From positions 1 to 64,000 of the forward strand of contig NZ_JAUOSF010000005.1 of NCBI RefSeq assembly GCF_030548465.1: DNA of 64,000 bases, read 5' to 3'. Within the stretch, counting starts at the first letter, position 1. Every line of letters starts with the position of its first letter. The translations under genes were made by a program, and so were the position numbers. The notes beneath the pieces were generated by a model that was not told where the DNA came from, ran no database searches, and saw nothing but the letters and a program-made list of their open reading frames with translations. Source of the stretch: Tamlana sp. 2_MG-2023 (GTDB lineage Bacteria > Bacteroidota > Bacteroidia > Flavobacteriales > Flavobacteriaceae). Positions 29,912 to 61,907 of this stretch are shown here, in pieces.

Positions 29912-29957
29912 TTCGGAAACGTTTCCGAACATAATTTATTTACCGGAAACGTTTCCG
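29912..29957. promoter_or_regulatory. Twin palindromic LacI-type operators
   Basis: TTCGGAAACGTTTCCGAA (29912-29929) is a perfect 18-bp palindrome. CGGAAACGTTTCCG (29944-29957) is a second perfect 14-bp copy, with centres exactly 30 bp apart, about three helical turns. The central AACGTT and the size are classic for LacI-family operators. They lie between the symporter operon and the LacI gene, so autoregulation and operon repression from one site cluster are expected. Confidence 0.9.
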
Positions 29958-29996: not shown

Positions 29997-31019
29997 ATGA
30001 AGCATATCACCATAAAAGACTTAGCAAAAACGTTAAACGTTTCAATTTCTACTGTATCGCGCGCTTTTAATAATAAATATGATATTAAACCAGAAACGCG
30101 AGATTTGATCTTACAAAAGGCAGAAGAATTAGGATACAGACCCAATCCGATTGCTCGGAAGTTAATTCAGCAACGCTCCTTTAATATAGGCGTTGTGGTT
30201 CCTGAATTTGAGAATAGCTTCTTTCCAAAGGTATTAATGGGGGCTCAAGAAATTTTACACGACAAGGGGTACCAAGTCCTCATGATGCAATCGAACTACT
30301 CCTGGGAAATTGAAAAGAAAAATGTAGAAACCTTGGTTGATAATAAAGTAGACGGTTTAATTATTTCACTCACCTCGGAAAATAAAAATAACAGCTATTA
30401 CAAAAGTCTGATAGACCAAAATATCCCGATAGTATTTTTTAACCGTACAGTAGACGATATTCCCGCTTCTCAGGTGTTATTTGACGATTTCAAGTGGGCT
30501 TTATTTGCTACGGAACACTTAATTATGCAAGGCTACCAAAATATTGTTCATTTAAAAGGTAGTGAAAATCTAAATTTAACCCAAAATCGAGTAAGTGGAT
30601 TTCAACAAGCTCATAGAAAACACAGAGTTAAACCCGGAAAAATAATTCCCTGTGGTTTTAGAACTAAAGATGGAGAGCGTGTTGCCCAACAATTGATTGA
30701 CAATAATGAAGTGCCTAGAGCTATTTTTGCAGCCAACGATTCCTGTGCTATAGGTGCTATGAACATATTTAAACAAAGCGGCTATCACATTCCTAATGAT
30801 ATTGCGATGGTTGGTTTTACAGAATCTAACTTGGCAAAACACATTCACCCTAGCCTTACTTCTGTAGAACAACCCACTAAAGACATAGGGCAAACGGCAG
30901 CAAACCTATTACTTGAACAAATTGCAAACAAAGGCATTTTTGTACCCCAAACCATATTTTTAAATGGCCGATTAAATGTTAGAGATTCGTCCATTAATCA
31001 TTTGCAGAAAAACGTTTAA
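29997..31019 (+). CDS. LacI-family transcriptional repressor
   Basis: This 340-residue protein has the LacI helix-turn-helix (TIKDLAKTLNVSISTVSRAF, about 4-23) and hinge (GYRPNPIARKL, with residues near 47-57). A periplasmic-binding-protein-like sensor domain follows (NIGVVVPEFENSFFPKVLMG, AIFAANDSCAIGAMNIFKQS, TSVEQPTKDIGQTAANLLLE). It should bind the two palindromes just upstream of its start and release them on binding a sugar derived from the galactan. It is transcribed divergently from the symporter/FAD/GH2/GH117 operon, which is its likely target. Confidence 0.92.
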   Translation: MKHITIKDLAKTLNVSISTVSRAFNNKYDIKPETRDLILQKAEELGYRPNPIARKLIQQRSFNIGVVVPEFENSFFPKVLMGAQEILHDKGYQVLMMQSNYSWEIEKKNVETLVDNKVDGLIISLTSENKNNSYYKSLIDQNIPIVFFNRTVDDIPASQVLFDDFKWALFATEHLIMQGYQNIVHLKGSENLNLTQNRVSGFQQAHRKHRVKPGKIIPCGFRTKDGERVAQQLIDNNEVPRAIFAANDSCAIGAMNIFKQSGYHIPNDIAMVGFTESNLAKHIHPSLTSVEQPTKDIGQTAANLLLEQIANKGIFVPQTIFLNGRLNVRDSSINHLQKNV

Positions 31020-46186: not shown

Positions 46187-46229
46187 TATATTTGGAAAAC
46201 CAGTCTGGAAAACCAATTTGGTTGTCCAG
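46187..46229 (+). promoter_or_regulatory. Alginate-locus promoter/operator 1 (PL6)
   Basis: TATATTTG (46187-46194) fits the Bacteroidota -7 element. From 46193 three units follow at 13-bp spacing: TGGAAAACCA, TGGAAAACCA, TGGTTGTCCA. The first shares TGG with the -7 element, so a bound repressor would block initiation. The -33 TTTG lies 16 bp upstream of the -7 element, shorter than in the sister sites. The operator lies downstream of the ATG at 46172, so translation must start later, at 46259. Confidence 0.75.
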
Positions 46230-46258
46230 ATAAAAAAAATACTAAAACTATAACTAAA

Positions 46259-48856
46259 ATGAGTAAAAACTTTACACTTTTAAGAAAGGGGTACGAGGCT
46301 CGTACACCTTTAAAATTCTTTTTCACTATTGCCTTTTTATGTTTTTCATACTTGTCTATTGGGCAAAACATGTATGATGATGATTATGATTTACGTACTG
46401 CTGTGAATGCTGCCGGTCAAACAGGCGGGACTTTTATTGTTAAAAACGGAGAATATAGCGACTTTCAACCGGCATTTGAGGTTGAGGCTACGGCTGCAAA
46501 CCCAATTATAGTAAAGGCCGAAACTGTAGGTGGAGTAAAACTAACAGGTAGTTCTCGATTTAACTTCCGTCGATGCGCTTATATTACTATGGAAGGTTTT
46601 ATCTTCGAGAATGATGATAACACTTCTATGGTTAAAACCGAAGGTTGTAACAACATTAGAATTTCAAGAAATGTCTTTGAATATACAGGGATAGAATCTT
46701 GTAAATTTGTTTATATCGGTGGAGTTTGGGATGATATAGTCTATCCTTTTAATTACCCAAGTCATAATAATAGAATTGACCATAATATTTTTCAGAATAA
46801 AAAAAGTCCTGGGCATTATATTACTATTGATGGTTCTAATGATGACGCTACGAGTACATCTTACCAATCACAGTACGATCGTATCGATCATAATTACTTT
46901 GTGAATAATGGCCCTAGAGCGGTAAACGAACAAGAGTCTATCCGTGTAGGGTGGAGTGAAATGTCATTGTCTAGTGGATTTACTACAGTGGAGTATAATT
47001 TGTTTGAAGAATGTGATGGAGATCCAGAAATTGTATCTATAAAATCATGTGATAATACGGTGAGATTTAACACTTTTATTGGAAGTTATGGGACGCTGTC
47101 TTTCCGTCATGGAAATAGAAACCGTGCAGAGGGTAACTTTTTCTTCGGAAATAATAGGCCACAAGGGCTGTCTCCAGATGGAGCTGATTTGTATACAGGA
47201 GGTATTCGTATTTACGGAAAAGACCACGTCATTATTAATAACTATATGGAAGGTTTAAATGGTACCCGTTGGGATGCTCCTATTGCCTTAACAAAAGGTG
47301 ATGCTATCGATGGGCAAAGTTCTAGTTTAAGTAAACATTTTAGAGCTGAAAACGTATTAATCGCATATAATACCTTAGTAAACAACAGTCATGGTATTGA
47401 AATTGGATATGATAATAATGGTAAGTATGGAACTAACCTAAGTAATATTACGATTGCTAATAATTTAATTACGGGTTCGGAGAATGCTTTAGTGGATATC
47501 ATTGATGGCAATGATCAAGGGAGCGCTATTACTTGGAAAAATAATTTAATGCAGCCTACAGGGACAGCGGTAACCTTAAATGGAGCAACCTCAACGTCAT
47601 TTGACGCTACTAATGTTGTAGAAGAGGATCCAAATTTGGCACCTGAAACTGTAAATACTTTTAGTTTATTCAAAACAACGGCGACATCGCCTGTGTATGC
47701 ACATGCGGCTACCGAAGCAGTTGGCACAGATATAGAAGGTCAAGATCGACCAAGTAATAGTAATCCTGGAGCAGATCATTTTAGTAGTATGACAGCAACA
47801 ATTAAGCCATTAACTTCAAGTGATGTTGGGCCTTATGTTCAAGATGACGGTAGTGTGTCTGAAATTATGTATGTAACCTCACTGGCGACCTATGTTGCTG
47901 CAGGAGAGGCTCAAGATGTCACCGTAACGTCTAATGTGAATTGGACGGCAACTACAATGGATAGCTGGATTTCTATAGCCCCAGCTAGTGGGTCGGATAA
48001 TGGGACGTTTGCAGTTACGGCTTCCGAAAATACAACTTATTCTGAACGATCAGGTGAAGTTACTGTTACAGGAGGAGCCTTAACAAGAACGATAACAGTG
48101 ACTCAAGAAATGGCAGACCCTCGCGCTAATTTGAACTTGATTAACCCAACGGCTACCGATGTTTCTGTATATTCAGTTACTTATGAGGAGGTAGATGCTA
48201 GTAAAAATAAGAACAACATTGCAGAGCACAGTTTAGATAAAGATTTAGATACCTATTGGGCAAGTAATAAAGATCTAGATCCAGCTGGAAGTGGAAAATC
48301 TATAATTATTTATGATTTAGAAGGTGCTTTTGACTTAGACTTGATTGACATCGCTACATCATCTGGAAAAACATATATGCTTCAAATTTGGGTGTCTACT
48401 TCTGGAGTTGATGACGGAGATTTTACGAATATATTTGGAGATATTGTAACCACGACTGATGGTGATATGCAGGCCTTTATGCCTTCTTCTCCAATTGCAG
48501 GTGCTAAATATGTGAAAATTATTGGTGATGGACAACCTAGTAGTAAATTTACATCCATTCATGAAATTGAATTTTACACCAGTCAAGCGCTTTCGGTAAA
48601 CGATTTCGATACCAGTGCAATATCTGTATACCCTGTGCCAGCAAAAGAGGTGTTAAACATCAAAACCAATGGCGTTGCGGTTAATACTATAAATGTTTAC
48701 GGTTTAGACGGAAGATTGGTTCTTAATAAAGTTGTTGAGAATTCAAATTCAGGAATTACTTTAAATACTTCAAGTTTATCTAACGGAACCTATGTGGTTC
48801 GATTTACAAACACCAACGGACTAAACGAGTCTCGAATGATTGTCGTGTCTCATTAG
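46259..48856 (+). CDS. PL6 alginate lyase with BACON, discoidin-like and T9SS domains
   Basis: I start translation at 46259 (MSKNFTLLRKGYEAR), since the upstream ATG at 46172 lies in the promoter/operator. The 865-residue product has a signal segment (about 16-36) and a right-handed beta-helix of the chondroitinase-B/PL6 type. The catalytic pair is Lys262 (VSIKSCDN) and Arg283 (LSFRHGNRN), 21 residues apart as in PL6 alginate lyases. A BACON domain (about 530-610), a discoidin-like domain (about 635-765) and a type IX sorting domain (from about 785) follow. It should depolymerise alginate at the cell surface or outside. A repeat/terminator follows. Confidence 0.88.
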   Translation: MSKNFTLLRKGYEARTPLKFFFTIAFLCFSYLSIGQNMYDDDYDLRTAVNAAGQTGGTFIVKNGEYSDFQPAFEVEATAANPIIVKAETVGGVKLTGSSRFNFRRCAYITMEGFIFENDDNTSMVKTEGCNNIRISRNVFEYTGIESCKFVYIGGVWDDIVYPFNYPSHNNRIDHNIFQNKKSPGHYITIDGSNDDATSTSYQSQYDRIDHNYFVNNGPRAVNEQESIRVGWSEMSLSSGFTTVEYNLFEECDGDPEIVSIKSCDNTVRFNTFIGSYGTLSFRHGNRNRAEGNFFFGNNRPQGLSPDGADLYTGGIRIYGKDHVIINNYMEGLNGTRWDAPIALTKGDAIDGQSSSLSKHFRAENVLIAYNTLVNNSHGIEIGYDNNGKYGTNLSNITIANNLITGSENALVDIIDGNDQGSAITWKNNLMQPTGTAVTLNGATSTSFDATNVVEEDPNLAPETVNTFSLFKTTATSPVYAHAATEAVGTDIEGQDRPSNSNPGADHFSSMTATIKPLTSSDVGPYVQDDGSVSEIMYVTSLATYVAAGEAQDVTVTSNVNWTATTMDSWISIAPASGSDNGTFAVTASENTTYSERSGEVTVTGGALTRTITVTQEMADPRANLNLINPTATDVSVYSVTYEEVDASKNKNNIAEHSLDKDLDTYWASNKDLDPAGSGKSIIIYDLEGAFDLDLIDIATSSGKTYMLQIWVSTSGVDDGDFTNIFGDIVTTTDGDMQAFMPSSPIAGAKYVKIIGDGQPSSKFTSIHEIEFYTSQALSVNDFDTSAISVYPVPAKEVLNIKTNGVAVNTINVYGLDGRLVLNKVVENSNSGITLNTSSLSNGTYVVRFTNTNGLNESRMIVVSH

Positions 48857-48897
48857 TAATTAGCTAGAGTCTAACGTTTATTCAACGTTTTTATAAA

Positions 48898-49068
48898 TAA
48901 AAAAAAAGAGGCTGTACAAAAAGTATTGAGGCTGTACAAAAAGTATTAAAGTACGTCATTCTGAATTTATTTCAGAATCACATCATATTGATAACCAATC
49001 ATTATGAGAACCTGAATCAAGTTCAGGTTGACGAAAACTTTACTTTTTAGATAGCCTCTTTTTTTAAG
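48898..49068. repeat. Compound palindromic repeat element, probable terminator
   Basis: AAAAAAAGAGGCTGT at the left (about 48900-48915) pairs with ATAGCCTCTTTTTTT at the right (49051-49065). Inside are two shorter palindromes: TTCTGAATTTATTTCAGAA (48959-48977) and AACCTGAATCAAGTTCAGGTT (49009-49028). The 20-mer gaggctgtacaaaaagtatt is duplicated in tandem at the left end. It resembles the dispersed REP-like palindromes (GTCATTCTGAA...TTCAGAATC) of flavobacterial genomes. It follows the PL6 gene and should act as a terminator or RNA-stabilising structure. Confidence 0.65.
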
Positions 49069-49182
49069 CCTTAAAGGTTTGTTTTTATAATAGAATCGTA
49101 GTATGTAGAGGCACGCAAATAGTAGTTAATCTGTATTTCTAAAGTCTTTTAATTATCTAATATGAAATTTAACAAAGTAAAA

Positions 49183-49247
49183 TTTGGTTTATTCATATTT
49201 ATACTTATATTTGGAGAACCAATGTGGTAAACCAGTTTGGTTTACCG
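49183..49247 (+). promoter_or_regulatory. Alginate-locus promoter/operator 2 (lamin-tail-like protein)
   Basis: The -33 TTTG (49183-49186), a 19-bp spacer and the -7 element TATATTTG (49206-49213) form a full Bacteroidota promoter. From 49212 come TGGAGAACCA, TGGTAAACCA and TGGTTTACCG at 13-bp spacing. The last two units with their 3-bp gap form a near-perfect palindrome (GGTAAACCAGTTTGGTTTACC). Confidence 0.8.
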
Positions 49248-49294
49248 CGTAAAATTTAACCACAATTAAAACTAATTAATTTAAACTATATAAT

Positions 49295-50530
49295 ATGAAA
49301 ACAAAATTACTTTTAGCAGCATTATTTACTGCATCATTTGGCTTCGCTCAAACGTTTGATAATATTCCGACTGGTTCTGGGTATTATATTAATAAGATTA
49401 TGCCTAGTCCTAATGGGCAAGATTTAACTAATGAACTTCTTGAAGTTAGAGGGCCTGCTGGGGTGGTAGTGCCTAGTAATTTATATTTAATTACTATTGA
49501 AGGCGATGGAGATAGAAGTTCTAACAATGGTATTGGGAAGGTTGAAGAAGCTATTGAATTAGGTGATGGGACTCGGGTTTTTGGGGCAAATGGAATATTA
49601 GCAGTTGTCGCGAATTATAATCAAGATAGTGGTGGGGTTACTGCAGGAGATGGGTATTATGAAAATCCTTACACTGCGGATATGGATGGTGATGCTCATA
49701 TACTTACGATTGAATTAGAGGGGAATAATGTGGGTAGTTCCAGTTCAAGTGCAGTTACTACGCAAGCGCCAGATATTGGTTGGGATGGTAACTTTATTGA
49801 TCAAACTGCAACTTATATGTTGGTTTCTTCGTCTACTAATCCAAAAGGTGTCTTTTTAGATGGTGATGGTTCTGCTGCAACGGCTGATGGTGCGATTGAC
49901 GCTACTGGTGATCATACTTTATGGACACTTTATGATTCAGTTTCTTTCATGGATGAAGACGATGCTAATGCAGGAAGAAATGGAGAGTATGCTTATGGGC
50001 AGATTATTTTTGCGAGAAACAATAATGATGCAGGTATTAGTGCTTATCAGTTTACAACGCCTGGAGCTAATGTTGTTCCTTATGGTACCACTAGTGCTTC
50101 TTTAATGATGAGACAAGGTGCTTCAACAGGTTTCACTACAAGTGATTGGGTAGTGACTACTGCCTCTGAAGGTACATTAGAGTTTAGTGATGATACAGAT
50201 AAGACTATACCTGCAGCTTTTGAAGGTTATGCGGATTTTAATACTATTTATGGTAGTTTAAATCCTACTTCGGCTTCATTATCTGTAGAAGAAGCATCAG
50301 TAAATGGTTTCGCAATCTATCCAAATCCAGCAAACGATATTTTAAATATAAAATCGAACAACCTTCAAATTTCAGCTGTAAGTATTTACAGTTTGTTAGG
50401 GAAGAGTGTTTATCAGAACAATCAATTTAGTGGTAGCATAATTGATTTGTCTAGCATCAACAGAGGGGTGTATATCCTGAAAATTGAGGCTAGTGGACGT
50501 ACTTTTAGTAAAAAATTAGTAGTTCAATAA
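49295..50530 (+). CDS. Unknown T9SS-exported protein with lamin-tail-like domain
   Basis: This 411-residue protein has a signal peptide (MKTKLLLAALFTASFGFAQ). The acidic beta-rich body resembles a lamin-tail (LTD) domain in its first half: INKIMPSPNGQDLTNELLEV, then LYLITIEGDGDRSSNNGIGK. A type IX sorting domain follows (FAIYPNPANDILNI to KKLVVQ). No catalytic family is recognised. The Asp/Gly-rich loops (TADMDGDAH, DGDGSAAT, DEDDAN) suggest calcium binding. It has its own copy of the alginate operator and sits between two PL6 genes, so it is probably part of alginate use. Possible roles are surface binding of the polymer or a support function. Its terminator follows directly. Confidence 0.7.
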   Translation: MKTKLLLAALFTASFGFAQTFDNIPTGSGYYINKIMPSPNGQDLTNELLEVRGPAGVVVPSNLYLITIEGDGDRSSNNGIGKVEEAIELGDGTRVFGANGILAVVANYNQDSGGVTAGDGYYENPYTADMDGDAHILTIELEGNNVGSSSSSAVTTQAPDIGWDGNFIDQTATYMLVSSSTNPKGVFLDGDGSAATADGAIDATGDHTLWTLYDSVSFMDEDDANAGRNGEYAYGQIIFARNNNDAGISAYQFTTPGANVVPYGTTSASLMMRQGASTGFTTSDWVVTTASEGTLEFSDDTDKTIPAAFEGYADFNTIYGSLNPTSASLSVEEASVNGFAIYPNPANDILNIKSNNLQISAVSIYSLLGKSVYQNNQFSGSIIDLSSINRGVYILKIEASGRTFSKKLVVQ

Positions 50531-50547
50531 GTAGTTGTTTAGTTATT

Positions 50548-50580
50548 AAAAGCCTTTTAGTAAAATAAAAGGCTTTTTTG
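50548..50580 (+). terminator. Intrinsic terminator after the lamin-tail-like gene
   Basis: AAAAGCCTTTTA (50548-50559) pairs with TAAAAGGCTTTT (50566-50577), followed by T-rich sequence. The loop is 6 nt. Confidence 0.85.
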
Positions 50581-50600
50581 TATTTTAAGAAAACCAAACC

Positions 50601-50651
50601 AAAAGCAAACAGTAAAAAGATGAGTTAGTCGTCGTTTTATTGTTTGCTTTT
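50601..50651. repeat. 17-bp inverted repeat upstream of the PL6 lipoprotein gene
   Basis: AAAAGCAAACAGTAAAA (50601-50617) is the inverse complement of TTTTATTGTTTGCTTTT (50635-50651) with one mismatch and a 17-nt loop. It lies in the 225-bp gap before the second PL6 gene, past the upstream terminator. It could be a second terminator, an attenuator, or a protein-binding dyad. No TGG-N4-CCA operator is visible in this gap. Confidence 0.6.
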
Positions 50652-50755
50652 ATAAATCTTAAAACTATGCAATTGTAAATAGTGTTAGTTTATTAGCTCA
50701 TTTATAGCTAATTAATTATAACTTTAGGTTCGAATAATCATAATTAATAAGTGCA

Positions 50756-53116
50756 ATGAATAAAATTCAGAAGAAAAGTGTTCAACGTCATTTAATAACA
50801 AAAGCAGCGTTATTAATAACTGTTTTGTTTTTAAGTGTAGGGTGTAAGGAAAAAACGCCAAAAGCGGCATCTTCATCAGCTGTAACAAATGGTGACGAAT
50901 TAAACGAAGCCATTAAAAAAGCCGAGCCAGGTGATGTTATTGTGATGTCTGATGGTGTTTGGAAGGATGTTGAAATAAAATTTAGAGGAAAAGGAACCAA
51001 AGATCAGCCTATCACGATTAAGGCTGAAACTGCTGGAGGTGTTTCTATTGAAGGGGAATCTTACTTGAAATTCGCTGGAGAATATTTAAAAGTTGAAGGC
51101 TTGCATTTTAAAAATGGGCATTCGCCTTCTAGTTCGGTTATCGATTTTAGAATCAATGAAAACGAAATTGCATACAACTGTACAGTAACGAACTGTGTAA
51201 TTGAAGATTTTAATCAGTTACATCGTGATGAAACCGATTTATGGGTGCAATTTTGGGGAAGAAATAACACTTTAAGCAATTGCTATATTGCTGGTAAAAC
51301 AAATCGCGGACCAACAGTACGTGTTAATTTGGAAGGTATTGAGAGTATGAATAATTACCACCAAATTGTAAATAACCACTTTGGGCCACGTCCTAGAAAA
51401 GGTGGTGCTAGTGCAGAGACCATTCAAATTGGTAATAGTTTTACATCTATGGCGCCAAGTTACACTATGGTAGAAAATAACCTATTTGAAGAGTGTAATG
51501 GTGAGGTAGAAATTATTTCAAGTAAAACAAACTTTAACGAGTTTAGAGGAAATGTATTTTATAACAGTGAAGGGTCTTTAGTAACAAGACATGGTAACTA
51601 CTGTATTATTGATGGTAATTACTTCATTAACGATAGTGAAAATACAAACGTAGGAGGTATTAGAATTGTAAATTCTGGACATTGGGTAACCAACAACTAC
51701 TTTTTTAACATAAAAGGAGCTAGTTTTAGAAGTGCTTTGGCTGTAATGAACGGTATTCCTAAATCACCTCAAAACAGATACAATCAAGTGACTGATGTCG
51801 TTGTGGCATATAACACTTATGTGAATTGTGTTTCGCCTTGGCAGTTTGGTGTAGGTACTAACATTGCGCAATCAGATGTGTTACCTAAATCTGAAATTAG
51901 ATCGGCAAGACCAATTAGAACGACGGTGGCAAATAATGTTATTTATAACGAAGTTGGTGATCCTTCACCAGTTTTTGAACATGATAAAGCTGATGGTGTA
52001 CTTTTTAAAAGTAACGTGATCAACAATCAAGGTGTTGATTTCAAAGATTTTGATGGTGGTATTCAAACAGCATCATTAGAATTGACTAAAATTACAGATA
52101 ACATCATGCTTCCAACAGGAGTGCCTAGTTCGGTAGAGCCTTATCAAGGCTTCGATTTTAATACCATTACTAAAGATTTATTTGGTAATTCTAGAGAAGA
52201 AAACAATGCTGTTGGTGCAAGTTTAAAAGCTGATGTGGCGAATCCAAATATTTTAGATAAAACGAAATATGGAGCCGATTGGTATTCAAACGTTGTTGAA
52301 ACTAAAGAAGCAACTACACATAATGTTTCTTCAGTTGCAGAATTACAACAAAAAATTGATGCTGCTAAGTCTGGAGATGTTATTGCTTTGGCTAAAGGTG
52401 TTTATGAATTAGATAAGTCTTTAAAAATTAGTAAAGCAATTACGATTCAATCACCGGCAGATGAAAAAGCACAAATCGTTTTTTCTGGAGCGGCAGAAAC
52501 ACCAGTTTTTGAGTTAAACCCTAAAGGGCTTTTAACATTAAACAATGTGGTATTAAAAGGTAATGGCGAAAATTATGCTTTTGCAAGTTTAAAGGAAAAC
52601 ATGTCTAATCACTTTGGTTTAACAGTTTCAAACTGTGAGATTAGTGATTTCGCTTATGCCTTAAGAGTTTATAAAGAAGCTTTTGCTGAAAATATTACTT
52701 TCGAAAAAACAGCCTTTGATAAATGTGAAAATGGTCTTGAATTATCTGAAGAGATTAATGATAAAGGTGATTATAACACAGAATACTTAACCATTACAGA
52801 TTGTACCTTTAATGCGATTAAGCAAAATGTTGTTGATTATTATAGAGGTGGTTACGACGAGTCTACTATTGGTGGAAACTTGTTAATTGCTAACTGTACA
52901 TTTACAAACTCTGGTGGTCATGAAAAGAACAAGACGTTATTAAATCACCGCGGTATTGTTAATGTAAATATTAAGGATAATACCTTTAAAAATAACCCAG
53001 TTAAATTTGTGTCTGTGTTATGGGGAGCAAAGAATAACGAACATTCAAACAATACGATTTCTAATTCTGGTGAAATTAAAGTTCAAGAGAACTTAGAGAT
53101 GAAAATGATGTATTAA
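50756..53116 (+). CDS. PL6 alginate lyase, two-helix lipoprotein
   Basis: This 786-residue lipoprotein (LFLSVGC, Cys30) has an N-terminal PL6 beta-helix (about 45-450). The catalytic pair is Lys257 (ISSKTNFNEF) and Arg278 (LVTRHGNY), again 21 residues apart. A second beta-helix follows (from about 530 to the end: DVIALAKGVYELDKSLKISK, then many short turns). This two-helix plan is known in PL6 alginate lyases that form dimers. It should act on alginate or oligoalginate at the membrane, probably facing the periplasm or the surface. It begins a gene pair with a heparinase-fold lyase 10 bp downstream. Confidence 0.88.
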   Translation: MNKIQKKSVQRHLITKAALLITVLFLSVGCKEKTPKAASSSAVTNGDELNEAIKKAEPGDVIVMSDGVWKDVEIKFRGKGTKDQPITIKAETAGGVSIEGESYLKFAGEYLKVEGLHFKNGHSPSSSVIDFRINENEIAYNCTVTNCVIEDFNQLHRDETDLWVQFWGRNNTLSNCYIAGKTNRGPTVRVNLEGIESMNNYHQIVNNHFGPRPRKGGASAETIQIGNSFTSMAPSYTMVENNLFEECNGEVEIISSKTNFNEFRGNVFYNSEGSLVTRHGNYCIIDGNYFINDSENTNVGGIRIVNSGHWVTNNYFFNIKGASFRSALAVMNGIPKSPQNRYNQVTDVVVAYNTYVNCVSPWQFGVGTNIAQSDVLPKSEIRSARPIRTTVANNVIYNEVGDPSPVFEHDKADGVLFKSNVINNQGVDFKDFDGGIQTASLELTKITDNIMLPTGVPSSVEPYQGFDFNTITKDLFGNSREENNAVGASLKADVANPNILDKTKYGADWYSNVVETKEATTHNVSSVAELQQKIDAAKSGDVIALAKGVYELDKSLKISKAITIQSPADEKAQIVFSGAAETPVFELNPKGLLTLNNVVLKGNGENYAFASLKENMSNHFGLTVSNCEISDFAYALRVYKEAFAENITFEKTAFDKCENGLELSEEINDKGDYNTEYLTITDCTFNAIKQNVVDYYRGGYDESTIGGNLLIANCTFTNSGGHEKNKTLLNHRGIVNVNIKDNTFKNNPVKFVSVLWGAKNNEHSNNTISNSGEIKVQENLEMKMMY

Positions 53117-53126
53117 TTCATACAGA

Positions 53127-55364
53127 ATGAAATTAGTAAAACAATTAGGTTTTGTGTTAGTCTTCGGGCTAATGCAAAACCTTTTTTCGCAAAATATACC
53201 TACTGATAAAGTTATTGCTAACGAAAATCTTTCAGAGTATTTAACTAAAGAGATTCAAAAGGAGTTAGGGTCTAAGCCGATTTCCGAAGAAAAATTAGCA
53301 GCCTATTTCCGTGATAAATTTTCAGAACGCTATTTCTTCAACTGGAAAAATTTTGAAAGCCGTTTTGAGACCTACAAAAGCCTGTATCCAGAGGCTGAAG
53401 CGTTGCACACTGAGCGCGCCTTAGATCACTTGGCCAAATTTCCTGATGCTACCCAGTGGGTTTTGCCATTTAACTATCAAAATGGCGAACCGGTTAATGC
53501 TTATGCTTTACGGCATTTAGCGCGTCAGCATAAAATGGTAGATATTGCTTATTACTATTTCTACCAGAATAAAGATATCACGTATTTAAATTACTTTAAA
53601 AATCAACTTCAATCCCTTAATTCAGCACTTCTGGCTGGTGAATACGAAAAAATAGAAGACGGTAACGGGGTCTATGAAGCGTTTCGTTCAGGTTATCGCG
53701 TTTTAAATTGGTTGCAAATTCATAATATGTTTCTTGGAGAAGAAGCTTATAGTGATAGCGATCAACTAATAACCATTGCGACGTTGCTTCAGCATGGCGC
53801 AGATTTGTTTGCTAACAATACTAAGTTTCATCCAGGAAATCATCAAACTCGGGGGCTTTCTGCTTTAGCTATGATTTCAATTTTATTGCGTGATTTTGAA
53901 GGTACAGATATTTGGTACGAGCATGCGATGAAATTGTTAGAAGAGCACTTGGCTAAAGAAATAAATGATGATGGGTTTCAGTTTGAGCGTACTGTGCATT
54001 ACCATATCAGTGATATTGGAAACTACTATTATGTATATCAACTCGCAAAATTAAGTGATTATAAGGTAAACGATTTTTGGAGTGCTAAGTTAAAGTCGTT
54101 GTTTGTGTCTTTAACTAAAATTGCATACCCTAATAAATCAGCTCCGGTACTTTCTGATGATACAGATAATCCGTGGGGAGAAACAAATGATATCTCAGGA
54201 GCTTTAACGCTTGGTTATTTGTTGTTTGACGATCCTGAATTTGGATACTTTGCTAATAAAACGGTGCAGTCTAAAATGTTTTGGTTTGTTACTAGCGATC
54301 AATTGGCTTCGTTGAATAACATTTCTTCTGAAGCTCCTACGATGAAATCTGTAAGTTTTCCAACAACTGGAATTTACGTGATGCGTGAAGGCTGGAATAG
54401 TGATGATAAGGTTATGGTAATTACGGCAGGATTGGATAAGGATAAACCCGATCATCAACACGGTGATATGTTAGGGGTTCAATTTATGGCTTACGGTAAG
54501 CCCATGCTACCAAATTATCAAGTACGCTATTCTCTTGATGATTTAGAATTATTTAAAAACTCAATGACTAAAAATGTGGCTTTAGTAGATGATGAATTAC
54601 AAGGGAAACATTACACGTCAAATAAAGGAGGGAGTGGTTTTGGAAAGTTTAAAGAATTGCCACAGCCTTCAACAATAGCATGGGAAACTAACGATGATTT
54701 AGATTTGTTTGTTGGTTCGCATGACGGATTTAAAAATGTTGGGGTAAACTATTCTAGGCAAGTTATTTATTTAAAAGACGATTTCTGGATTGTAAAAGAT
54801 AATTTCTCATCTGAAAAACCACACGATTACAAACAAGTTTGGCAAGGGCATTTTAGTCAGGAATTAGCACCTAATCTTTTGCGTGCTACTTTTAGTGATG
54901 CCACAGGGTTGGATCTATATCAGTTACAAAATATTGATGCTGTTTCAGTATCTGGAAAACGCGGTAAACAGTGGTCGGTAGTTTCTAAAAGCCAACAGAA
55001 GGACTTTGCGTTTGTTACGGTGTTGTATCCTTACAAGGGTTATGATAATCGTATTGATGAAAATAAGAAACAAGTAGAAATTAAAGGTTGGGTGTTAAAT
55101 CATTCAAATTGGGAGACCCAGGGCGAAAATACGCTAAGCTTAACTAAGGGTAATGATGAGGTGTTTCTGTCGGTAAAAAGTTTAAAAATTGATGATGTTA
55201 CACTTCAGTTTTCTGCAATTTCAGATGTTTATTTTTCTAAAAGAGAAGGAGAATTAACCATTCAGCTGTTGTCTGAAGAGGCAGTAGAATGTCAATTTAT
55301 AAGTGCTAAACATTCAAAAAAAGTTTCTTTAAAGTCGGGAGCTATTTTCAGCTTAACTTATTGA
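53127..55364 (+). CDS. Heparinase II/III-fold polysaccharide lyase (PL39-like, probable alginate lyase)
   Basis: This 745-residue exported protein (signal about 1-21) has an N-terminal alpha-toroid and a C-terminal beta-sandwich, the heparinase II/III plan. Candidate catalytic residues are Asn238-His239 (HPGNHQTRG) and Tyr292 (FERTVHYHIS). A further conserved segment is KPDHQHGDMLGVQFMAYGKP in the sandwich, where His lines the cleft. It differs from the PL17 next door by having GNHQ instead of HNHSTWG and ERTVHYH instead of SPDGYY. It may belong to PL39 or a relative, but I cannot prove the family. The pairing with PL6 and the alginate locus indicate alginate as substrate. Confidence 0.65.
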   Translation: MKLVKQLGFVLVFGLMQNLFSQNIPTDKVIANENLSEYLTKEIQKELGSKPISEEKLAAYFRDKFSERYFFNWKNFESRFETYKSLYPEAEALHTERALDHLAKFPDATQWVLPFNYQNGEPVNAYALRHLARQHKMVDIAYYYFYQNKDITYLNYFKNQLQSLNSALLAGEYEKIEDGNGVYEAFRSGYRVLNWLQIHNMFLGEEAYSDSDQLITIATLLQHGADLFANNTKFHPGNHQTRGLSALAMISILLRDFEGTDIWYEHAMKLLEEHLAKEINDDGFQFERTVHYHISDIGNYYYVYQLAKLSDYKVNDFWSAKLKSLFVSLTKIAYPNKSAPVLSDDTDNPWGETNDISGALTLGYLLFDDPEFGYFANKTVQSKMFWFVTSDQLASLNNISSEAPTMKSVSFPTTGIYVMREGWNSDDKVMVITAGLDKDKPDHQHGDMLGVQFMAYGKPMLPNYQVRYSLDDLELFKNSMTKNVALVDDELQGKHYTSNKGGSGFGKFKELPQPSTIAWETNDDLDLFVGSHDGFKNVGVNYSRQVIYLKDDFWIVKDNFSSEKPHDYKQVWQGHFSQELAPNLLRATFSDATGLDLYQLQNIDAVSVSGKRGKQWSVVSKSQQKDFAFVTVLYPYKGYDNRIDENKKQVEIKGWVLNHSNWETQGENTLSLTKGNDEVFLSVKSLKIDDVTLQFSAISDVYFSKREGELTIQLLSEEAVECQFISAKHSKKVSLKSGAIFSLTY

Positions 55365-55685
55365 CTGTAAAATAAGTGTTTGTGATTTTATTTAAATTTC
55401 TTCTGCATACAATAAACCATACTAAGATTGATGAAAGCGTAGTGAATCGTAATTTCTGCTAAAAAAATAAACTAAATATTGTTTAGCGCTATTTATATGA
55501 TAATTAATTAATTGAAGTGGGGCAAAAAAATATGTATTTGGTAAAAATAATACATTAAAATTAACAATTTAAGTGAAGTGGTTTGGTGTAAGTGATAAAT
55601 ATACTTATATTTGGAAAACCAATCTGGTAAACCAAACTGGTTTCCAGTAGAGACTAAATTTAATAAATAAATTCGAATAAAACGA
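55365..55685 (+). promoter_or_regulatory. Intergenic region with alginate promoter/operator 3 (PL17)
   Basis: The gap holds no gene. Its right half has -33 TTTG (55582-55585), a 20-bp spacer and TATATTTG (55606-55613). From 55612 come TGGAAAACCA, TGGTAAACCA and TGGTTTCCA at 13-bp spacing, the last one base short. This matches the operators at 46193, 49212 and 58375. Confidence 0.8.
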
Positions 55686-57968
55686 ATGGCGTTAAATAAA
55701 AAAACGATTATCGGGCTGTTTCTTAGCGTGTTAATGTTAGGAAGTGTGCTTTCTTGTAAAGATCAAAACGAAACTTCAAGTAAAGAGGAAGCAAAGAGTT
55801 CATCTGGCGGACATCCAAAACTTATTATTACTAAAGCCGGAGTAGAAGAAATCCGAAAAAATTTAGGTAATATTCCAATTTTTGATGCTTCATTAGAAAT
55901 GGCAAAAGAAGAGGTTGATGCCGAAATTGAAGCAGGTATAGATACACCAATTCCAAAAGATTTCTCTGGGGGTTATACACACGTACGTCATAAGCGCAAC
56001 TTTTTTATGCTTGAAAAAGCAGGTTTGCTTTATCAAATTTTAGATGACGAAAAATATGCGAAGTATGTGAAAGACATGTTCTTTCAATATGCAGACATGT
56101 ATAAAGATTTGCCGGTGCACCCTCAAACGCGTTCTTATGCTAGAGGTAAATTGTTTTGGCAATGTTTAAATGATTCTAACTGGTTGGTTTATGCAAGTCA
56201 GGGTTATGATTGTATTTATGAGTATCTAACTCCTGAGGAGCGTGAAACTCTTGAGAGAGATTTGTTCAGGCCGTTTGCTGATTTTATTTCAATTGGTAAT
56301 CCGAAATTCTATAACCGTGTTCATAATCATAGTACTTGGGGTAACGCCGCGGTAGGCATGATTGCATTGGTTATGGATGATGACGAACTGTTACAACGTG
56401 CGCTGTACGGTATTGAAAATGATGGTCTAGATCCAAATGAAAAGGATAATGATGGTGGGTATATAAAAGACCCTGAAGGTAGAGCTGGATTTTTAGCGAA
56501 TTTGGAAGAACCTTTTTCTCCGGATGGCTATTATACTGAAGGTCCATACTATCAGAGATACGCGATGTATCCATTTTTAATTTTCTCTGAAGCTTTAAAT
56601 AATGTAAAACCTGAGCTTAAAATTTTTGAACATAAAGATGGTGTGCTTTTAAAAGCTGTTGATGCTTTATTAAATCTTTCTGATGCTGATGGAGATTTCT
56701 TTCCTTTAAATGATGGGCAAAAAGGCATGTCTTATTATTCAAAAGAACTAGTGACAGCTGTAGATATTGCCTACTTACACGGTGGAAAAAATCCAGGCTT
56801 GTTAAGTATTGCTGAAAAACAAAATCGTGTTTTATTAGATGATTCAGGTTTAGCTATTGCTTTAGGTATTAAAAAAGGAGAAACAAAACCATTTAATAAG
56901 AAGTCGGTTAATCTTAGCGATGGACCAGATGGAAAACAAGGAGGAGTTGCTGTATTACGTAACGATGATTTAGAAGTCGTGTTTAAGTATGCAGCTCAAG
57001 GTTTAAGTCACGGACATTATGATAAGTTATCATTTTCCATGTATGAAAACGGTCAAGAAGTTATTCAAGATTATGGCTTAGCACGTTTTGTGAATATTGA
57101 ACAAAAAGGTGGTGGTAATTATTTAAAAGAAAACAAAACTTGGGCAAAACAAACTATTGCTCATAACACGGTGACTCAGAACGAAACAAGTCATTTTCAA
57201 GGGAAGTACGAAATAGGTTCAAAACATCATTCTGTATTGGATTTTTACGATTTTTCTAATGCTAATATCAAAGTGGTAAGTGCTCATGAGGCTAATGCTT
57301 ACCCAGGCACGGTTATGCATCGTACTATGGCTGTGATAACAGATAAGGATTTTGAAAAGCCTTATGTATTAGACCTAATGCGTGTGACTTCAGATAAAGC
57401 AAATCAATACGATTTTCCATATTATTTCTTAGGGCAGGTTATGGAGACCAACTTTAAATACAGTACACCAGAAACGTTAAAACCACTGGGGTCTAAACAC
57501 GGGTATCAACATTTATTCGTTGAAGGACAAGGAAAAGCTAGTCAAGAAAATGTGAAGTTGTCTTGGTTGAATGCGGGCCGTTTTCACACTTTAACTACAG
57601 TTACTAATAATCAAGACGAAGTGTTTTTTACTCGAATAGGAGCAGCTGATCCAGAATTTAATTTACGTAAAGAGCCAGCCATTATGCTTAGAAAGTCTCA
57701 AACTAAGGATGCTGTATTTGCTTCGGTTATTGAATCTCATGGAGGTTATAGCCCTGTGTCCGAAAATGCTGTAAACTCACACAGTAACATTTCAAAAATA
57801 AAAGTCATTTATAATGATGCAGATTATACAGCAGTAAGCATTGTGGATTTACAAGGGAATAGCAAAGTATTTATTGTGTCTAATAAAACAACTTCGAAAG
57901 AAAAGAAACATAATTTGAAAATAAATGATAATACTTTCCAGTGGACTGGGAGCTATTATTTTAAATAA
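55686..57968 (+). CDS. PL17 oligoalginate lyase
   Basis: This 760-residue lipoprotein (GSVLSC, Cys24) has the PL17 alpha-toroid plus sandwich. Diagnostic segments are RVHNHSTWGNAAVGM (Asn214, His215) and FSPDGYYTEGPYYQRYAMYPF (Tyr282/Tyr283), which match exolytic alginate lyases of the Alg17C type. AAQGLSHGHYDKLSFSMY lies in the sandwich. It should cut oligoalginate to unsaturated monomers in the periplasm. It has its own operator-controlled promoter, 318 bp after the heparinase-fold lyase. A hairpin terminator lies about 270 bp after its stop. Confidence 0.88.
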   Translation: MALNKKTIIGLFLSVLMLGSVLSCKDQNETSSKEEAKSSSGGHPKLIITKAGVEEIRKNLGNIPIFDASLEMAKEEVDAEIEAGIDTPIPKDFSGGYTHVRHKRNFFMLEKAGLLYQILDDEKYAKYVKDMFFQYADMYKDLPVHPQTRSYARGKLFWQCLNDSNWLVYASQGYDCIYEYLTPEERETLERDLFRPFADFISIGNPKFYNRVHNHSTWGNAAVGMIALVMDDDELLQRALYGIENDGLDPNEKDNDGGYIKDPEGRAGFLANLEEPFSPDGYYTEGPYYQRYAMYPFLIFSEALNNVKPELKIFEHKDGVLLKAVDALLNLSDADGDFFPLNDGQKGMSYYSKELVTAVDIAYLHGGKNPGLLSIAEKQNRVLLDDSGLAIALGIKKGETKPFNKKSVNLSDGPDGKQGGVAVLRNDDLEVVFKYAAQGLSHGHYDKLSFSMYENGQEVIQDYGLARFVNIEQKGGGNYLKENKTWAKQTIAHNTVTQNETSHFQGKYEIGSKHHSVLDFYDFSNANIKVVSAHEANAYPGTVMHRTMAVITDKDFEKPYVLDLMRVTSDKANQYDFPYYFLGQVMETNFKYSTPETLKPLGSKHGYQHLFVEGQGKASQENVKLSWLNAGRFHTLTTVTNNQDEVFFTRIGAADPEFNLRKEPAIMLRKSQTKDAVFASVIESHGGYSPVSENAVNSHSNISKIKVIYNDADYTAVSIVDLQGNSKVFIVSNKTTSKEKKHNLKINDNTFQWTGSYYFK

Positions 57969-58238
57969 GTAGATGATTAAAATAATGATTATGAAAACAA
58001 TTGGAACAAGCAAAGAATTCCTTTTAGAAGAAGTAACTCGAAGGAAAACAAGAGGTAAAATGATTCAGAGTACACGCAGTGGAATGTGCTGATAACAGCA
58101 TGCAAGTAATATAGATGTTGCTTAGGTGTTGTTTTATTTGTTGCAAAACATTACCGGGCCAACTTATGTTGCTAGTAGGGAGTATTAATAAATAGTTGAA
58201 GAAGCGACTTAAAACTTAAGTGAATTTTTATGTAAGAG

Positions 58239-58266
58239 CTTAAAAAGTGTTAGGCTTTTTTTTAAG
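58239..58266 (+). terminator. Weak intrinsic terminator downstream of PL17
   Basis: CTTAAAAAG (58239-58247) pairs with CTTTTTTTTAAG (58255-58266) around TGTTAGG, with an eight-T run in the right arm. The stem is AT-rich, so termination may be incomplete. Confidence 0.5.
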
Positions 58267-58345
58267 GGTTTAAGTGAGTTTATCGATATTTTTTTGGCTA
58301 ATTCGTTAATATTTATAGAGTAAGCATGTTAATTTAAGAAAATAT

Positions 58346-58410
58346 TTTGCTTTAAGTTTAATTTAACATATCTTTGGTAAACCAATGTGGTAAACCAAAC
58401 TGGTTTTCGA
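58346..58410 (+). promoter_or_regulatory. Alginate-locus promoter/operator 4 (SusC/SusD)
   Basis: -33 TTTG (58346-58349), a 19-bp spacer and TATCTTTG (58369-58376) form the promoter. From 58375 come TGGTAAACCA, TGGTAAACCA and a degenerate TGGTTTTCGA at 13-bp spacing. The first TGG again overlaps the -7 element. Confidence 0.8.
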
Positions 58411-58676
58411 CAATTAAATTAGATGTTTAACGCTTTCTTAAAAAACTATTATTAACATGATTTTATTGTAAAAAAAGGGGGATTATTTTTCAAACTTTTT
58501 AAATGTTTACTTCTTTTAGGAGGGAGGTAAATTAAAACTCAAGCCGAAGACTTGATCTTAGTATAAACTTATAAATAGGGTTTGTGTTAAGTCAATTGGA
58601 GGTAAAAAAAGGCAATTCCGATCGTTATGTGTCTGGGTTGTATTAACTATACTATTTAAACATAAAAAAACCAATT

Positions 58677-61600
58677 ATGAATTTAAAAAATAAATTAGCA
58701 CTATTTGTTGTTTTGCTTTTAAGCATTACTACGTTTGCGCAGAATGGAACAGTTCTGAAAGGGGCCGTAGTGTCTTCTGAGGATGGTATTCCTATTCCTG
58801 GTGTAAATGTTATTGTAGTAGGTACTTCTAGAGGTACTACTACAGATTTCGATGGGAACTACGAAATCTCAGTAGAGCAAGGTGAGGCGATTCAGTTCTC
58901 TTATCTTGGTTATGTGTCTCAAACGAAACTTTTTTCGGGAGATGCCACATTAAACATTTCATTAACTGAAGATGTATCGCAGCTTGATGAAGTTGTCGTT
59001 ATTGGTTATGGTGATCAGAAAGAGAAAGATATCACTAGTGCCTTAACGAAAGTAGATTCTAAAGATATTCAGGATTACTCTGTAGCGCGTGTGGAGGATG
59101 CACTTCAAGGTAAGGTTGCAGGTTTAAGAATTCAAGTAACTTCTAGTGAAGCGGGTGGAGATCCAAAAATCACATTAAGAGGACCAGGTTCTATTACAGG
59201 ATCTTCAGCACCACTTATTGTTGTTGATGGTGTAGTATTAGGTACAGACCCAGATATCTTAGGTTCTATTGATAATAATAATATTGAATCTTTAAGTGTG
59301 TTAAAGGATGCTTCTTCTGTTGCAATCTACGGTTCTCGTGGTGCAAATGGTGTAATCTTGGTAACGCTTAAAGAAGGTGTTTCTGGTCAAACAAAATTCT
59401 CTTATAACACATTTACGGGATATAAGTTTACTAAAAACAACGACAATTTCAATACTACAATCGCTGATGAAAGAGCTAGATTAAATAGTCTTTCAGATGA
59501 AGTTGCTGCTATCGACCCAAGTAGTCCAAGATATGATGATATCAACAAGTATTATGATTCGGCTTTCGCTGAACTTGATGCTATGGATTTTCTTGCCTCG
59601 TTAAATGGTGGTGAAACAAACTGGCAAGATGAAATCTTTAATGGAGGTGTGATTACCAGTCACTCATTTGCTGCTAGAGGTGGTTCAGAATTAACAAGTT
59701 ACACAGCGTCTTTAGGGTATCTTGAAGATGAAGGTGTTGTTATAACCGATAACTTTAGGAAGATTAATGCAAGAATTAAAGTGGATAGTAAATCTAAAAA
59801 CAAGAAAATTAAATTTGGTACAAACATTAGTGTGAACTACAACGATCAAGTTAGAGTACCAACAAGATTTACCGATCCTTTAAGACAATATGGGCACTTA
59901 CCACTTTATTTAACAGAAGAGCACATGCCATATGTGACTAACTTCTCAAGAGAAGTTGGTGTGGGAACAGATGCTGGTAAATTATTTGAAAATCTTGATG
60001 TTGGTAGTTACGGTTTCTCAAGAGCTTTTGACCACGTGTTTACACAAGATCCTAGTAACCCAAGAACAATCGCAAGAGACCCTGCAACAGGGCTTCCTAC
60101 AATAAGTCCTGAAATTGATGGTGGATTAACCTTATCTACAACTAAGAATGTTCATCCTTTAGTGCACTATATTGAAAGAGAAAGATTAAAGAAGAAGTTG
60201 AACTTAAATACTTCGGCTTATATTGATTTTAAGTTAGCAAAAGGACTTAGTTTTAGACAATCTATTTCAGGTGTATTTAGACACAGTAAAGACAATAATA
60301 CAGACTATTTGTATGGTCAAGAAAATAGAGACCAAGAGTCGTTTCGTTTAGAATCAAGAGATGAATTAAACCAATATGCTTTTGAATCGCTTCTTAAATA
60401 CAATAAAAGTTTCGGTAAGCATAGTATAAATTCAGTATTTGGTTTTGAGTTTACTCAAAGAGATTTTTACACTCAAGAAACTGAAAATGTTGGTTATACT
60501 GATGATTTTAACAATAACATTGCACTTGCTGATGGTGGTACAACATTTACAGATAATGGTACAGATAAGTTAGTATCTTATTTTGGTAGAATTGATTATA
60601 GCTTTGATGAAAAATACTTACTACAAGTTTCTGCTCGTACTGATGGTAGTACAAGATTTGGTACTAACACAAGGTTTGGGTTCTTCCCTGCAGCTTCTGT
60701 TGGTTGGATCCTTACTAAGGAAGACTTCTTAGCAAATAGTGATGTCATAAGCTTCTTTAAATTAAGAGCGAGTTACGGTATATCTGGTTCTAATGAAATT
60801 GATAACAACGTATTTAATTCACTTTACAGATTCCAAGAGTCTTTTAGTACAATTAGTTACCAAGGTTTGTCTGGTGTAAAAGCGATTACTTTAGCTAACC
60901 AAAATTTAGGTTGGGAGCAATTGGTAGAATTTAACCCTGGTTTGGATATGACATTTGGTAGAAGTTTATTCAATTTAGGTGTTGATTACTATACAAGAAG
61001 TAGTAAAGATTTAATTCTTTTCGCTCCAGTATCTGGTGTTTACGGAACTGATAACTGGTTGCAAAACATTGGTGAAGTTAAAAACGAAGGTGTTGAAGTT
61101 GAAGTAAGTTCTAGAATTTATACTAACGAGAACATGAGTTGGAAAGCTTCTGGTAACTTTGCTTTAAATAGAAACGAAGTTGTGAGTTTAGGACGTAATG
61201 ATCAAATTCTTTCTAGAATTGATCAAGACACTAGACCAACAGAGTTTATAGCCAGAGTAGGGCAGCCAATTACTTCTTTCTACGGTTGGGTTTATGAAAA
61301 AGAAATGCCTTTAGAATATGTTGATAATCCGTTTAATAGATTTAACAATGATTTCGCTCACGTATATGTGAAAGATTTAAACGGTGACGGTATTATTGAT
61401 GCTGAAGATAGAACAGAGTTAGGTAATCCTTACCCTGATTTCACTTGGGGTTTCAATTCTGACTTTACTTATAAAAACTTTGACTTTGGTTTCCAATGGC
61501 AAGGGTCTCACGGTGCTGAAGTACGTGTAGCTGATTTAGATCAATTGTATTATGCTAGTGAGTCTGCGGTAAACTCAGTTAACGATTTTGTTGATAGAGA

Positions 61601-61907
61601 TTTATTAGTACACAGAAGATATACTGATGATCATATTCAAGATGCTTCTTATATCACCATGAGAAATATTACGTTTGGTTATACCATTCCTGAATCATTT
61701 ACTTCTAAGTATAACATTGATAGACTTAGACTATATGTAACAGGTGAAAACTTACTTTTCTTTACTGCTGCAGACTACGAAGGGTTTAACCCAGAAGCTG
61801 CTGGTCAAACTTCAGATAATGCAAATACGCCATTAACTGCAGGTTACCAAAGAGGAGATGGACCAGTAGTAAGAACAATTTCAGCAGGTCTTAACTTTCA
61901 ATTCTAA
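58677..61907 (+). CDS. susC: SusC-type TonB-dependent outer-membrane transporter (alginate)
   Basis: This 1076-residue protein has a signal peptide (about 1-21), a carboxypeptidase-D-like domain (about 27-100: GAVVSSEDGIPIPGVNVIVV), a TonB box region (LDEVVVIGYGDQ), a plug (ISGS... VAIYGSRGANGVILVTLKEG) and a large barrel ending with an aromatic residue (AGLNFQF). Length and layout are those of SusC transporters. With the following SusD it would import alginate oligosaccharides through the outer membrane. It is controlled by the operator promoter at 58346-58410 and has a long leader. Confidence 0.93.
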   Translation: MNLKNKLALFVVLLLSITTFAQNGTVLKGAVVSSEDGIPIPGVNVIVVGTSRGTTTDFDGNYEISVEQGEAIQFSYLGYVSQTKLFSGDATLNISLTEDVSQLDEVVVIGYGDQKEKDITSALTKVDSKDIQDYSVARVEDALQGKVAGLRIQVTSSEAGGDPKITLRGPGSITGSSAPLIVVDGVVLGTDPDILGSIDNNNIESLSVLKDASSVAIYGSRGANGVILVTLKEGVSGQTKFSYNTFTGYKFTKNNDNFNTTIADERARLNSLSDEVAAIDPSSPRYDDINKYYDSAFAELDAMDFLASLNGGETNWQDEIFNGGVITSHSFAARGGSELTSYTASLGYLEDEGVVITDNFRKINARIKVDSKSKNKKIKFGTNISVNYNDQVRVPTRFTDPLRQYGHLPLYLTEEHMPYVTNFSREVGVGTDAGKLFENLDVGSYGFSRAFDHVFTQDPSNPRTIARDPATGLPTISPEIDGGLTLSTTKNVHPLVHYIERERLKKKLNLNTSAYIDFKLAKGLSFRQSISGVFRHSKDNNTDYLYGQENRDQESFRLESRDELNQYAFESLLKYNKSFGKHSINSVFGFEFTQRDFYTQETENVGYTDDFNNNIALADGGTTFTDNGTDKLVSYFGRIDYSFDEKYLLQVSARTDGSTRFGTNTRFGFFPAASVGWILTKEDFLANSDVISFFKLRASYGISGSNEIDNNVFNSLYRFQESFSTISYQGLSGVKAITLANQNLGWEQLVEFNPGLDMTFGRSLFNLGVDYYTRSSKDLILFAPVSGVYGTDNWLQNIGEVKNEGVEVEVSSRIYTNENMSWKASGNFALNRNEVVSLGRNDQILSRIDQDTRPTEFIARVGQPITSFYGWVYEKEMPLEYVDNPFNRFNNDFAHVYVKDLNGDGIIDAEDRTELGNPYPDFTWGFNSDFTYKNFDFGFQWQGSHGAEVRVADLDQLYYASESAVNSVNDFVDRDLLVHRRYTDDHIQDASYITMRNITFGYTIPESFTSKYNIDRLRLYVTGENLLFFTAADYEGFNPEAAGQTSDNANTPLTAGYQRGDGPVVRTISAGLNFQF

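Follow-up and report, generated by a model that had tools for sequence, protein, structure and literature searches.

Tandem TGG-N4-CCA arrays at alginate promoters of Tamlana sp. 2_MG-2023 are probably operators of an AusR-type GntR repressor

The first 64,000 nucleotides of contig NZ_JAUOSF010000005.1 from the flavobacterium Tamlana sp. 2_MG-2023 (hereafter, the window) contain four arrays of three TGG-N4-CCA units each, located upstream of predicted lyase, tail-protein and SusC genes of an alginate cluster and fused to the predicted -7 boxes of the respective promoters. Very probably, they serve as operators of a GntR/FadR-family repressor of the AusR type, whose gene belongs to this alginate cluster and lies a short distance beyond the window. 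AusR, reportedly first described by Dudek et al. in 2020, is the repressor, likewise of the GntR family, that governs alginate utilization in Zobellia galactanivorans. According to the passages on it in PMC7874173 and PMC8286568, AusR acts at ‘single, double or triple’ operators, represses most of the alginate genes in Zobellia and is kept off DNA by alginate oligosaccharides.

With up to three mismatches allowed, a search of the window for three TGG-N4-CCA units with a 13-bp period yields exactly four matches, against 0.02 expected from shuffled sequences; they are the arrays at 46193, 49212, 55612 and 58375, which an earlier note on this DNA had pointed out (Table 1). Units one and two are free of mismatches in all four arrays, and the TG of unit one forms the last two bases of the -7 box, which matches TAnnTTTG in every case, in agreement with that note. 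The -33 TTTG was likewise correctly placed 19-20 bp upstream in three of the four arrays, the exception being the array at 46193, where the spacers are 12 and 16 bp. The unit form TGGtaaACCA given in the same note is too narrow, the inner bases being variable (AAAA, AGAA, TAAA, TTTA and others). The 23-bp palindrome that it ascribed to the last two units does exist, but is nothing special at the TGG/CCA level because any two adjacent units form one.

The gene run that starts with SusC and SusD continues beyond the window to a PL7 gene (at C41:66292, inside this run) and the predicted repressor gene (Table 1), which is followed by MFS and SDR genes and shares the alginate cluster with the arrays and SusCD. 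The encoded protein contains the GntR helix-turn-helix (HTH; PF00392) and FCD (PF07729) domains, both above cut-off, and a sequence comparison with solved structures gives regulators of the GntR family as the best matches, led by 6az6 and followed by PdhR. In the HTH, R52 is found in all 79 sequences of the clade that unites this protein with the Zobellia regulators (hereafter, the AusR clade) and in all 17 outgroup sequences, and R56 in 77 of 79 and 17 of 17, respectively; by analogy with FadR, residues of this type presumably contact DNA. In the FCD domain, D152 and H156 are present in 79 of 79 clade sequences, H201 and H223 in 77 of 79 (two gaps each), and all four in 17 of 17 outgroup sequences; we take this D-x3-H ... 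H ... H pattern to be the metal-type site of FCD domains, at which an acidic sugar might be bound. The statement in the earlier note that no alginate regulator of the GntR or LacI type is encoded in the window stands only in part: a LacI-family gene does lie in the window, apart from the alginate genes, and the GntR gene of the cluster and a second LacI gene come just past the window end.

For a scan of the 4.0 Mb genome, a model of the arrays (R1) was built from sequence only. Its training set comprised 97 arrays, all taken from other genomes, among them near relatives, after removal of duplicate sequences and of arrays located at the end of a locus. The four window arrays are the top four matches in the genome (E 1e-8 to 7e-7). 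Matches with E up to 0.3 fall at 12 places, 10 of which precede lyase, SusC or sugar-kinase genes: seven lyase genes (46187, 55605, C12, C2, C33 twice and C41:330172), two SusC genes (58368 and C1:317244) and one PfkB-family kinase gene (C45), which we infer to encode a kinase of 2-keto-3-deoxygluconate (KDG). The other two precede the tail-protein gene at 49295, inside the cluster, and a gene for a Laminin_G_3-domain protein (C43). Eight of the 12 places are triples (the four in the window, C2, both in C33, and C1), with worn units in the triples that lie outside the cluster; one is a double (C12, one unit with one mismatch), and three are single units (C41:330172, C43 and C45). Of two matches inspected above E 0.3, one lies inside a gene (C44:88804) and the other between two genes without an evident tie to alginate (C44:130716). 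The earlier note had named frequent occurrence of the motif away from alginate genes as grounds for abandoning the idea; among the 150 of 4769 first-look candidates that were scored, no such frequency was seen. A PL7 gene elsewhere in the genome (G000:C23:108777-109496, L098), one of seven PL7 domain matches, has no upstream R1 match and is a candidate basal ‘sentry’ lyase, PL7 being the family searched; AlyA7, the sentry lyase of Zobellia, belongs to PL14 in the source passage that describes it.

The architecture of the arrays was compared over 74 related loci, a partial set of near relatives that was collected by a contig scan for the repressor with six peptide patterns and that includes five loci each from Zobellia and Tamlana, though none from Z. 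galactanivorans itself. Pairs of exact units at distances of 4-25 bp number 152 at 13 bp and zero at any other distance; a further 46 exact pairs at 26 bp are mostly the outer units of triples. Under a strict rule, there are 106 arrays (61 double, 44 triple and one quadruple), to which the array counts below refer; a looser rule gives 112, of which at least three, lying within genes (L071 and L072 at 18860, L090 at 17099), look by eye like the product of chance, and finds at least one array in 69 of the 74 loci, with none in L034, L047, L063, L064 and L069. Outer half-sites are scarce, CCA occurring 3 bp before the array in 1 of 106 cases and TGG 3 bp after it in 3 of 106. As for the 152 gaps between units, CCA is followed by A or G in 148 and TGG is preceded by T or C in 137, while the middle position is always A or T, so that the unit is better written as YTGG-N4-CCAR, 12 bp, plus one base.

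Of the 106 arrays, 94 have TAnnTT in front of unit one; it stands before none of the 152 later units and before 2 of 335 solitary units. Read backwards from the last unit, it is found once in 106, and of 3308 TTTGG occurrences in the same loci, 368 have TA at the matching position. TTG is present 19-20 bp upstream of the -7 box in 54 of 93 arrays (one of the 94, situated at the end of its locus, was excluded). Five of the 12 arrays that lack TAnnTTTG (L039:1206, L049:369, L067:1404, L080:704 and L081:703) read TATATTGG, one base shorter; a similar box, TAnnTTGY (motif SM5), is ascribed to an alternative sigma factor in the relevant passage of PMC9723704.

The next gene after an array encodes SusC in 60 cases, a second SusC type in 8, PL17 in 10, a repressor of the AusR kind in 7 (where the array lies farther upstream than the single units described below), PL7 in 5, the tail protein in 4, PL6 in 3, KDG kinase in 3 and a PL6-PL7 protein in 1, with none in 5; by protein comparison, all 101 genes resemble one of 24 alginate-region genes of this genome. 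Since the loci were chosen by the repressor, this count alone is no proof of specificity, which is addressed by the genome scan. Of the 74 loci, 38 have an exact unit in the 150 bp preceding the repressor gene (one unit in 37, two in 1), and the best match to TGGTTAACCA in this region is perfect in 30 of 74 loci compared to 0 of 74 for the reversed stretches. The repressor gene, therefore, often has one site, and the cluster targets two or three.

Across the family, the motif tracks the regulator. In a survey of 299 genomes, with the repressor defined by a match with E up to 1e-20 and the motif by TTTGG-N4-CCA-N3-TGG-N4-CCA, 75 genomes have the former, 83 the latter and 74 both, i.e., the double operator is found in 74 of 75 genomes with the regulator versus 9 of 224 without it (Fisher p 9.7e-59, ignoring shared ancestry). 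The single repressor genome without the motif, G115, has a weak match (28% identity, E 6e-21) and was counted as a miss; each of the nine genomes with the motif and without a regulator match has one or two motif matches. That one repressor acts over the starts of several alginate units, which the earlier note had offered as an explanation of their co-induction, is well supported by this co-occurrence together with the regulator gene 3.2 kb past the window and the rank of the window arrays in the genome scan.

In a survey of 395 genomes of the class, 17 contain a homologue (E up to 1e-30), and 12 of the 17 are from outside the family. The TTTGG pattern is present in 3 of 23 genomes searched (these 12 and 11 without the homologue), namely G382, G502 and G651, all among the 12, and the TGG-N4-CCA unit recurs in the sequence surrounding the homologues (17 stretches from the 12 genomes). 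In a quick tree of the regulators (Shimodaira-Hasegawa-like approximate likelihood ratio test, SH-aLRT, only, no bootstrap, with several long branches flagged and 17 outgroup rows), the 79 rows of the AusR clade, including this genome and Zobellia, are separated from the other rows by a branch with SH-aLRT 100; 72 of them belong to loci with 13-bp pairs and 7 to loci with none. On the other side, 12 of 15 loci have close pairs, spaced 15 or 16 bp in eight (one of these also with a chance-like 12-bp pair), 14 bp in one, 22 bp in two and 13 bp in one (L171). Locus L159, from another family and nested beside Zobellia (support 99), has 13 bp, and its sister L158 has no pair; genome G382 holds both L159 and an outgroup repressor locus, L163, with 14 bp. 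These patterns fit an operator spacing that is tied to the repressor lineage, among few outgroup loci and with L171 as an exception. One of the 22-bp loci, L172 (G621:C3), carries two repressor genes (at 6650 and 12508), each next to a near-identical operator pair, which looks like a duplicated regulator-operator unit.

The following mechanism would account for these observations. Each YTGG-N4-CCAR unit would be an entire inverted-repeat site, occupied by a single repressor dimer; with one A/T base between the extended units, a 13-bp period packs them as tightly as is possible without overlap. In Flavobacterium psychrophilum, TAnnTTTG lies at -12 to -5 according to the pertinent part of PMC9723704, which by counting puts unit 1 at about -6 to +4, unit 2 at +8 to +17 and unit 3 at +21 to +30. 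With a dimer on unit 1, the -7 box and the start would be inaccessible; those on units 2 and 3 would lengthen the block and may assist through contact, and two or three adjacent dimers would prevent promoter opening. Alginate breakdown products would bind the FCD domain and release the repressor, and such release would induce the lyase genes and SusCD together. A 13-bp step is 13/10.5 turns, so adjacent sites are rotated by about 86 degrees and contacts between dimers would be lateral; helical phasing was discarded as the cause of the 13-bp period, the spacings of 14, 15, 16 and 22 bp in other clades having no common phase.

A more far-reaching proposal, which we put forward tentatively and at slightly less than an even chance, is that the spacing is a property of the repressor lineage: the AusR clade would demand exactly 13 bp, probably because dimers turned by about 86 degrees touch, and sister lineages with the same half-sites would mostly use 14, 15, 16 or 22 bp, so that paralogues in one cell could be separated by spacing alone, and the first unit within the -7 box would be a promoter-operator cassette kept across the family.

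Several alternatives were considered. Adjacent units do form a 23-bp TGG/CCA palindrome, and the earlier note envisaged such a palindrome plus a half-site, which one large dimer or tetramer could read. The arrays, however, begin with TGG and finish with CCA, nearly always without outer half-sites; solitary complete units occur, typically TTGGTTAACCAA directly upstream of the regulator gene; and outside the AusR clade the unit is unchanged while the spacing is mostly 14, 15, 16 or 22 bp. The borders at whole units and the complete single units make each unit look like a full site, and the palindrome plus half-site was rejected as the operator unit on these three grounds and is quite unlikely. 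It is very improbable that the arrays are read by the LacI-family regulator that shares the cluster (L018:7281-8345, after the GntR gene) instead of the GntR protein. LacI repressors also bind palindromes, but two TAAACGTTTA palindromes (L018:8331 and 8410, i.e., C41:71331 and 71410), presumably of the kind bound by LacI proteins, lie around the gap from this gene to the KDG kinase gene and are unlike the array unit, whereas the array motif matches GntR presence in 74 of 75 genomes, and the Zobellia locus L083 has the GntR gene and a triple array with no LacI match between SDR and kdgK. Given the place of these palindromes, the inner KDG module may be controlled separately, by LacI and not by the AusR-type repressor.

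That the arrays serve in activation or as leader RNA elements, rather than as repressor operators, can be given hardly any credence. Units 2 and 3 are probably transcribed, and 266 nt separate the array end from the SusC ATG; yet the TGG/CCA symmetry is kept despite variable inner bases, the array overlies the -7 box and the probable start, an Rfam scan of the window gives no match at the gathering score, and AusR is reported as a repressor in the passages of PMC8286568 that deal with it.

Some observations weigh against the interpretation of the arrays as operators of the AusR-type repressor. The motif, its period, the fusion to the -7 box, the genomic places and the joint occurrence with the regulator are observed; binding, repression, the inducer and cooperativity at these arrays are what we infer. 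Unit three is worn in 3 of the 4 window arrays (ending in CCG, CAG and CGA), and the site of the repressor gene itself in this genome, 34 bp upstream, is a worn unit with two mismatches. By eye, the fused -7 box is seen at 5 of the 12 R1 places (the four in the window and C2) and is missing from C1, C12, both C33 arrays and all three single sites, which means that some targets can do without it. The MFS, SDR and KDG genes downstream of the repressor gene have no R1 match, and R1 scores were obtained for a fraction of the first-look candidates. When one mismatch per pair is allowed, the 74 loci show 159 pairs at 13 bp, and many other distances also turn up with between 1 and 8 stray pairs each; in the reversed sequences, some distances are represented by 1 to 4 pairs and 13 bp by none.

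UxuR and ExuR of Escherichia coli are FadR-type regulators of uronate use with a TGG-N4-CCA unit (consensus TTGGTATACCAA) and are not known to act at tandem arrays that include part of a -7 box; the consensus was looked for in PMC9369180 and PMC10016265 and not found there. DgoR, a GntR/FadR-family repressor of E. coli, is similar to the predicted system in that a FadR-type dimer binds two close inverted repeats over the promoter (PMC12288454), but differs in operator sequence and pathway and in the absence of a fusion to a Bacteroidota -7 box. The closest parallel is AusR: as in the available accounts of that system, the GntR-family repressor gene lies within the alginate cluster, operators are single, double and triple, and targets lie both inside and outside the cluster. 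The gene order is also close to that of the Zobellia loci L083 and L092, which share the TGG-N4-CCA unit and have a triple operator before SusC. The genus is different, the regulator being 92-94% identical to its nearest relatives in Tamlana and 60-63% to those in Zobellia (Z. galactanivorans AusR itself lies outside the comparison); the window SusC is only about 40% identical to SusC of L083 and L092, and the SusC at C1 shows 65-66% identity to Zobellia SusC encoded beside AusR-type genes (L084, L086). Given the common clade with the Zobellia regulators and the single, double and triple operators of AusR, this kind of system is already known. What is possibly new is the rigidity, i.e., the 13-bp period and the -7 fusion: the AusR passages of PMC7874173, PMC8286568 and PMC8073546 mention neither, and wider literature searches, whose coverage did not extend to the original AusR description (Dudek et al. 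2020), showed none on either among the titles listed.

The genes behind the window arrays are listed in Table 1. The start of the first PL6-type gene was set at the ATG because the mechanical TTG start (46172) precedes the operator. The label ‘lamin-tail-like’ given to the gene at 49295 in the earlier note is not backed by Pfam, the sorting tail of the type IX secretion system (T9SS) being the sole match above cut-off.

Table 1. Predicted operators, -7 boxes and genes in and next to the window (R1 E, genome-wide E-value of the array model).
Feature	Position	Strand	Remarks
LacI-family gene	29997-31019		two perfect CGGAAACGTTTCCG palindromes at 29914 and 29944 (29914-29957)
-7 box TATATTTG, fused to unit 1	46187..46194	+	without TTTG at 19-20 bp
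Triple operator (predicted)	46193..46228	+	units 46193, 46206, 46219; 0 mismatches; R1 E 3.5e-7; before PL6-type gene
PL6-type lyase gene	46259..48856	+	Chondroitinas_B, BACON, T9SS tail; start position predicted
-7 box TATATTTG	49206..49213	+	-33 TTTG 49183-49186, spacer 19
Triple operator (predicted)	49212..49247	+	units 49212, 49225, 49238; 1 mismatch; R1 E 6.6e-7
T9SS-sorting-tail protein, otherwise unassigned	49295..50530	+	Pfam scan
PL6-type lyase	50756..53116	+	Chondroitinas_B; no own R1 match
Heparinase II/III-type lyase	53127..55364	+	no own R1 match
-7 box TATATTTG	55606..55613	+	-33 TTTG 55582-55585, spacer 20
Triple operator (predicted)	55612..55647	+	units 55612, 55625, 55638; 2 mismatches, both in unit three; R1 E 1.0e-8, genome best
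PL17-type lyase	55686..57968	+	Alginate_lyase + Hepar_II_III_C; PL17 name putative
-7 box TATCTTTG	58369..58376	+	-33 TTTG 58346-58349, spacer 19
Triple operator (predicted)	58375..58410	+	units 58375, 58388, 58401; 1 mismatch; R1 E 8.8e-8
SusC/RagA TonB-dependent transporter	58677..61907	+	TIGR04056 above cut-off
SusD-like lipoprotein	61914..63458	+	weak matches, below curated cut-offs
GntR-type repressor gene (predicted)	L018:4221-4937 = C41:67221-67937		3.2 kb beyond window end

A few other elements deserve mention. The CGGAAACGTTTCCG palindromes lie in the gap between the LacI-family gene of the window and the divergent gene 28192-29841, and a separate LacI regulon in the window is likely. 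Within 60 bp upstream of 12 of the 106 arrays, in loci of Winogradskyella, Lacinutrix and Arcticiflavibacter (L038, L044, L049, L051, L059, L061, L067, L079 and L094), AAAACGTT is found, a possible second (LacI) input to the same promoters. A perfect TGGTATACCA unit with TT/AA flanks at 19376-19389, within the open reading frame 18422-19726 (R1 E 4), is probably due to chance. The SusC leader (58411-58676) ranges from 29 to 346 nt in 58 relatives; a conserved RNA element in it was considered and dismissed, as an alignment of these with the focal sequence shows scattered kept columns only, and a hairpin-like pattern fitted to the focal leader matches 1 of 59, the focal sequence alone.

For a group of marine polysaccharide degraders, the arrays provide an operator code of alginate use that is specific and open to testing. 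It allows targets to be recognized in sequence, among them lyases distant from the cluster, a sugar kinase and a second SusC. The 13-bp register and its shift outside the AusR clade make spacing, beside the half-site sequence, a candidate means by which FadR-type repressors may avoid cross-talk.

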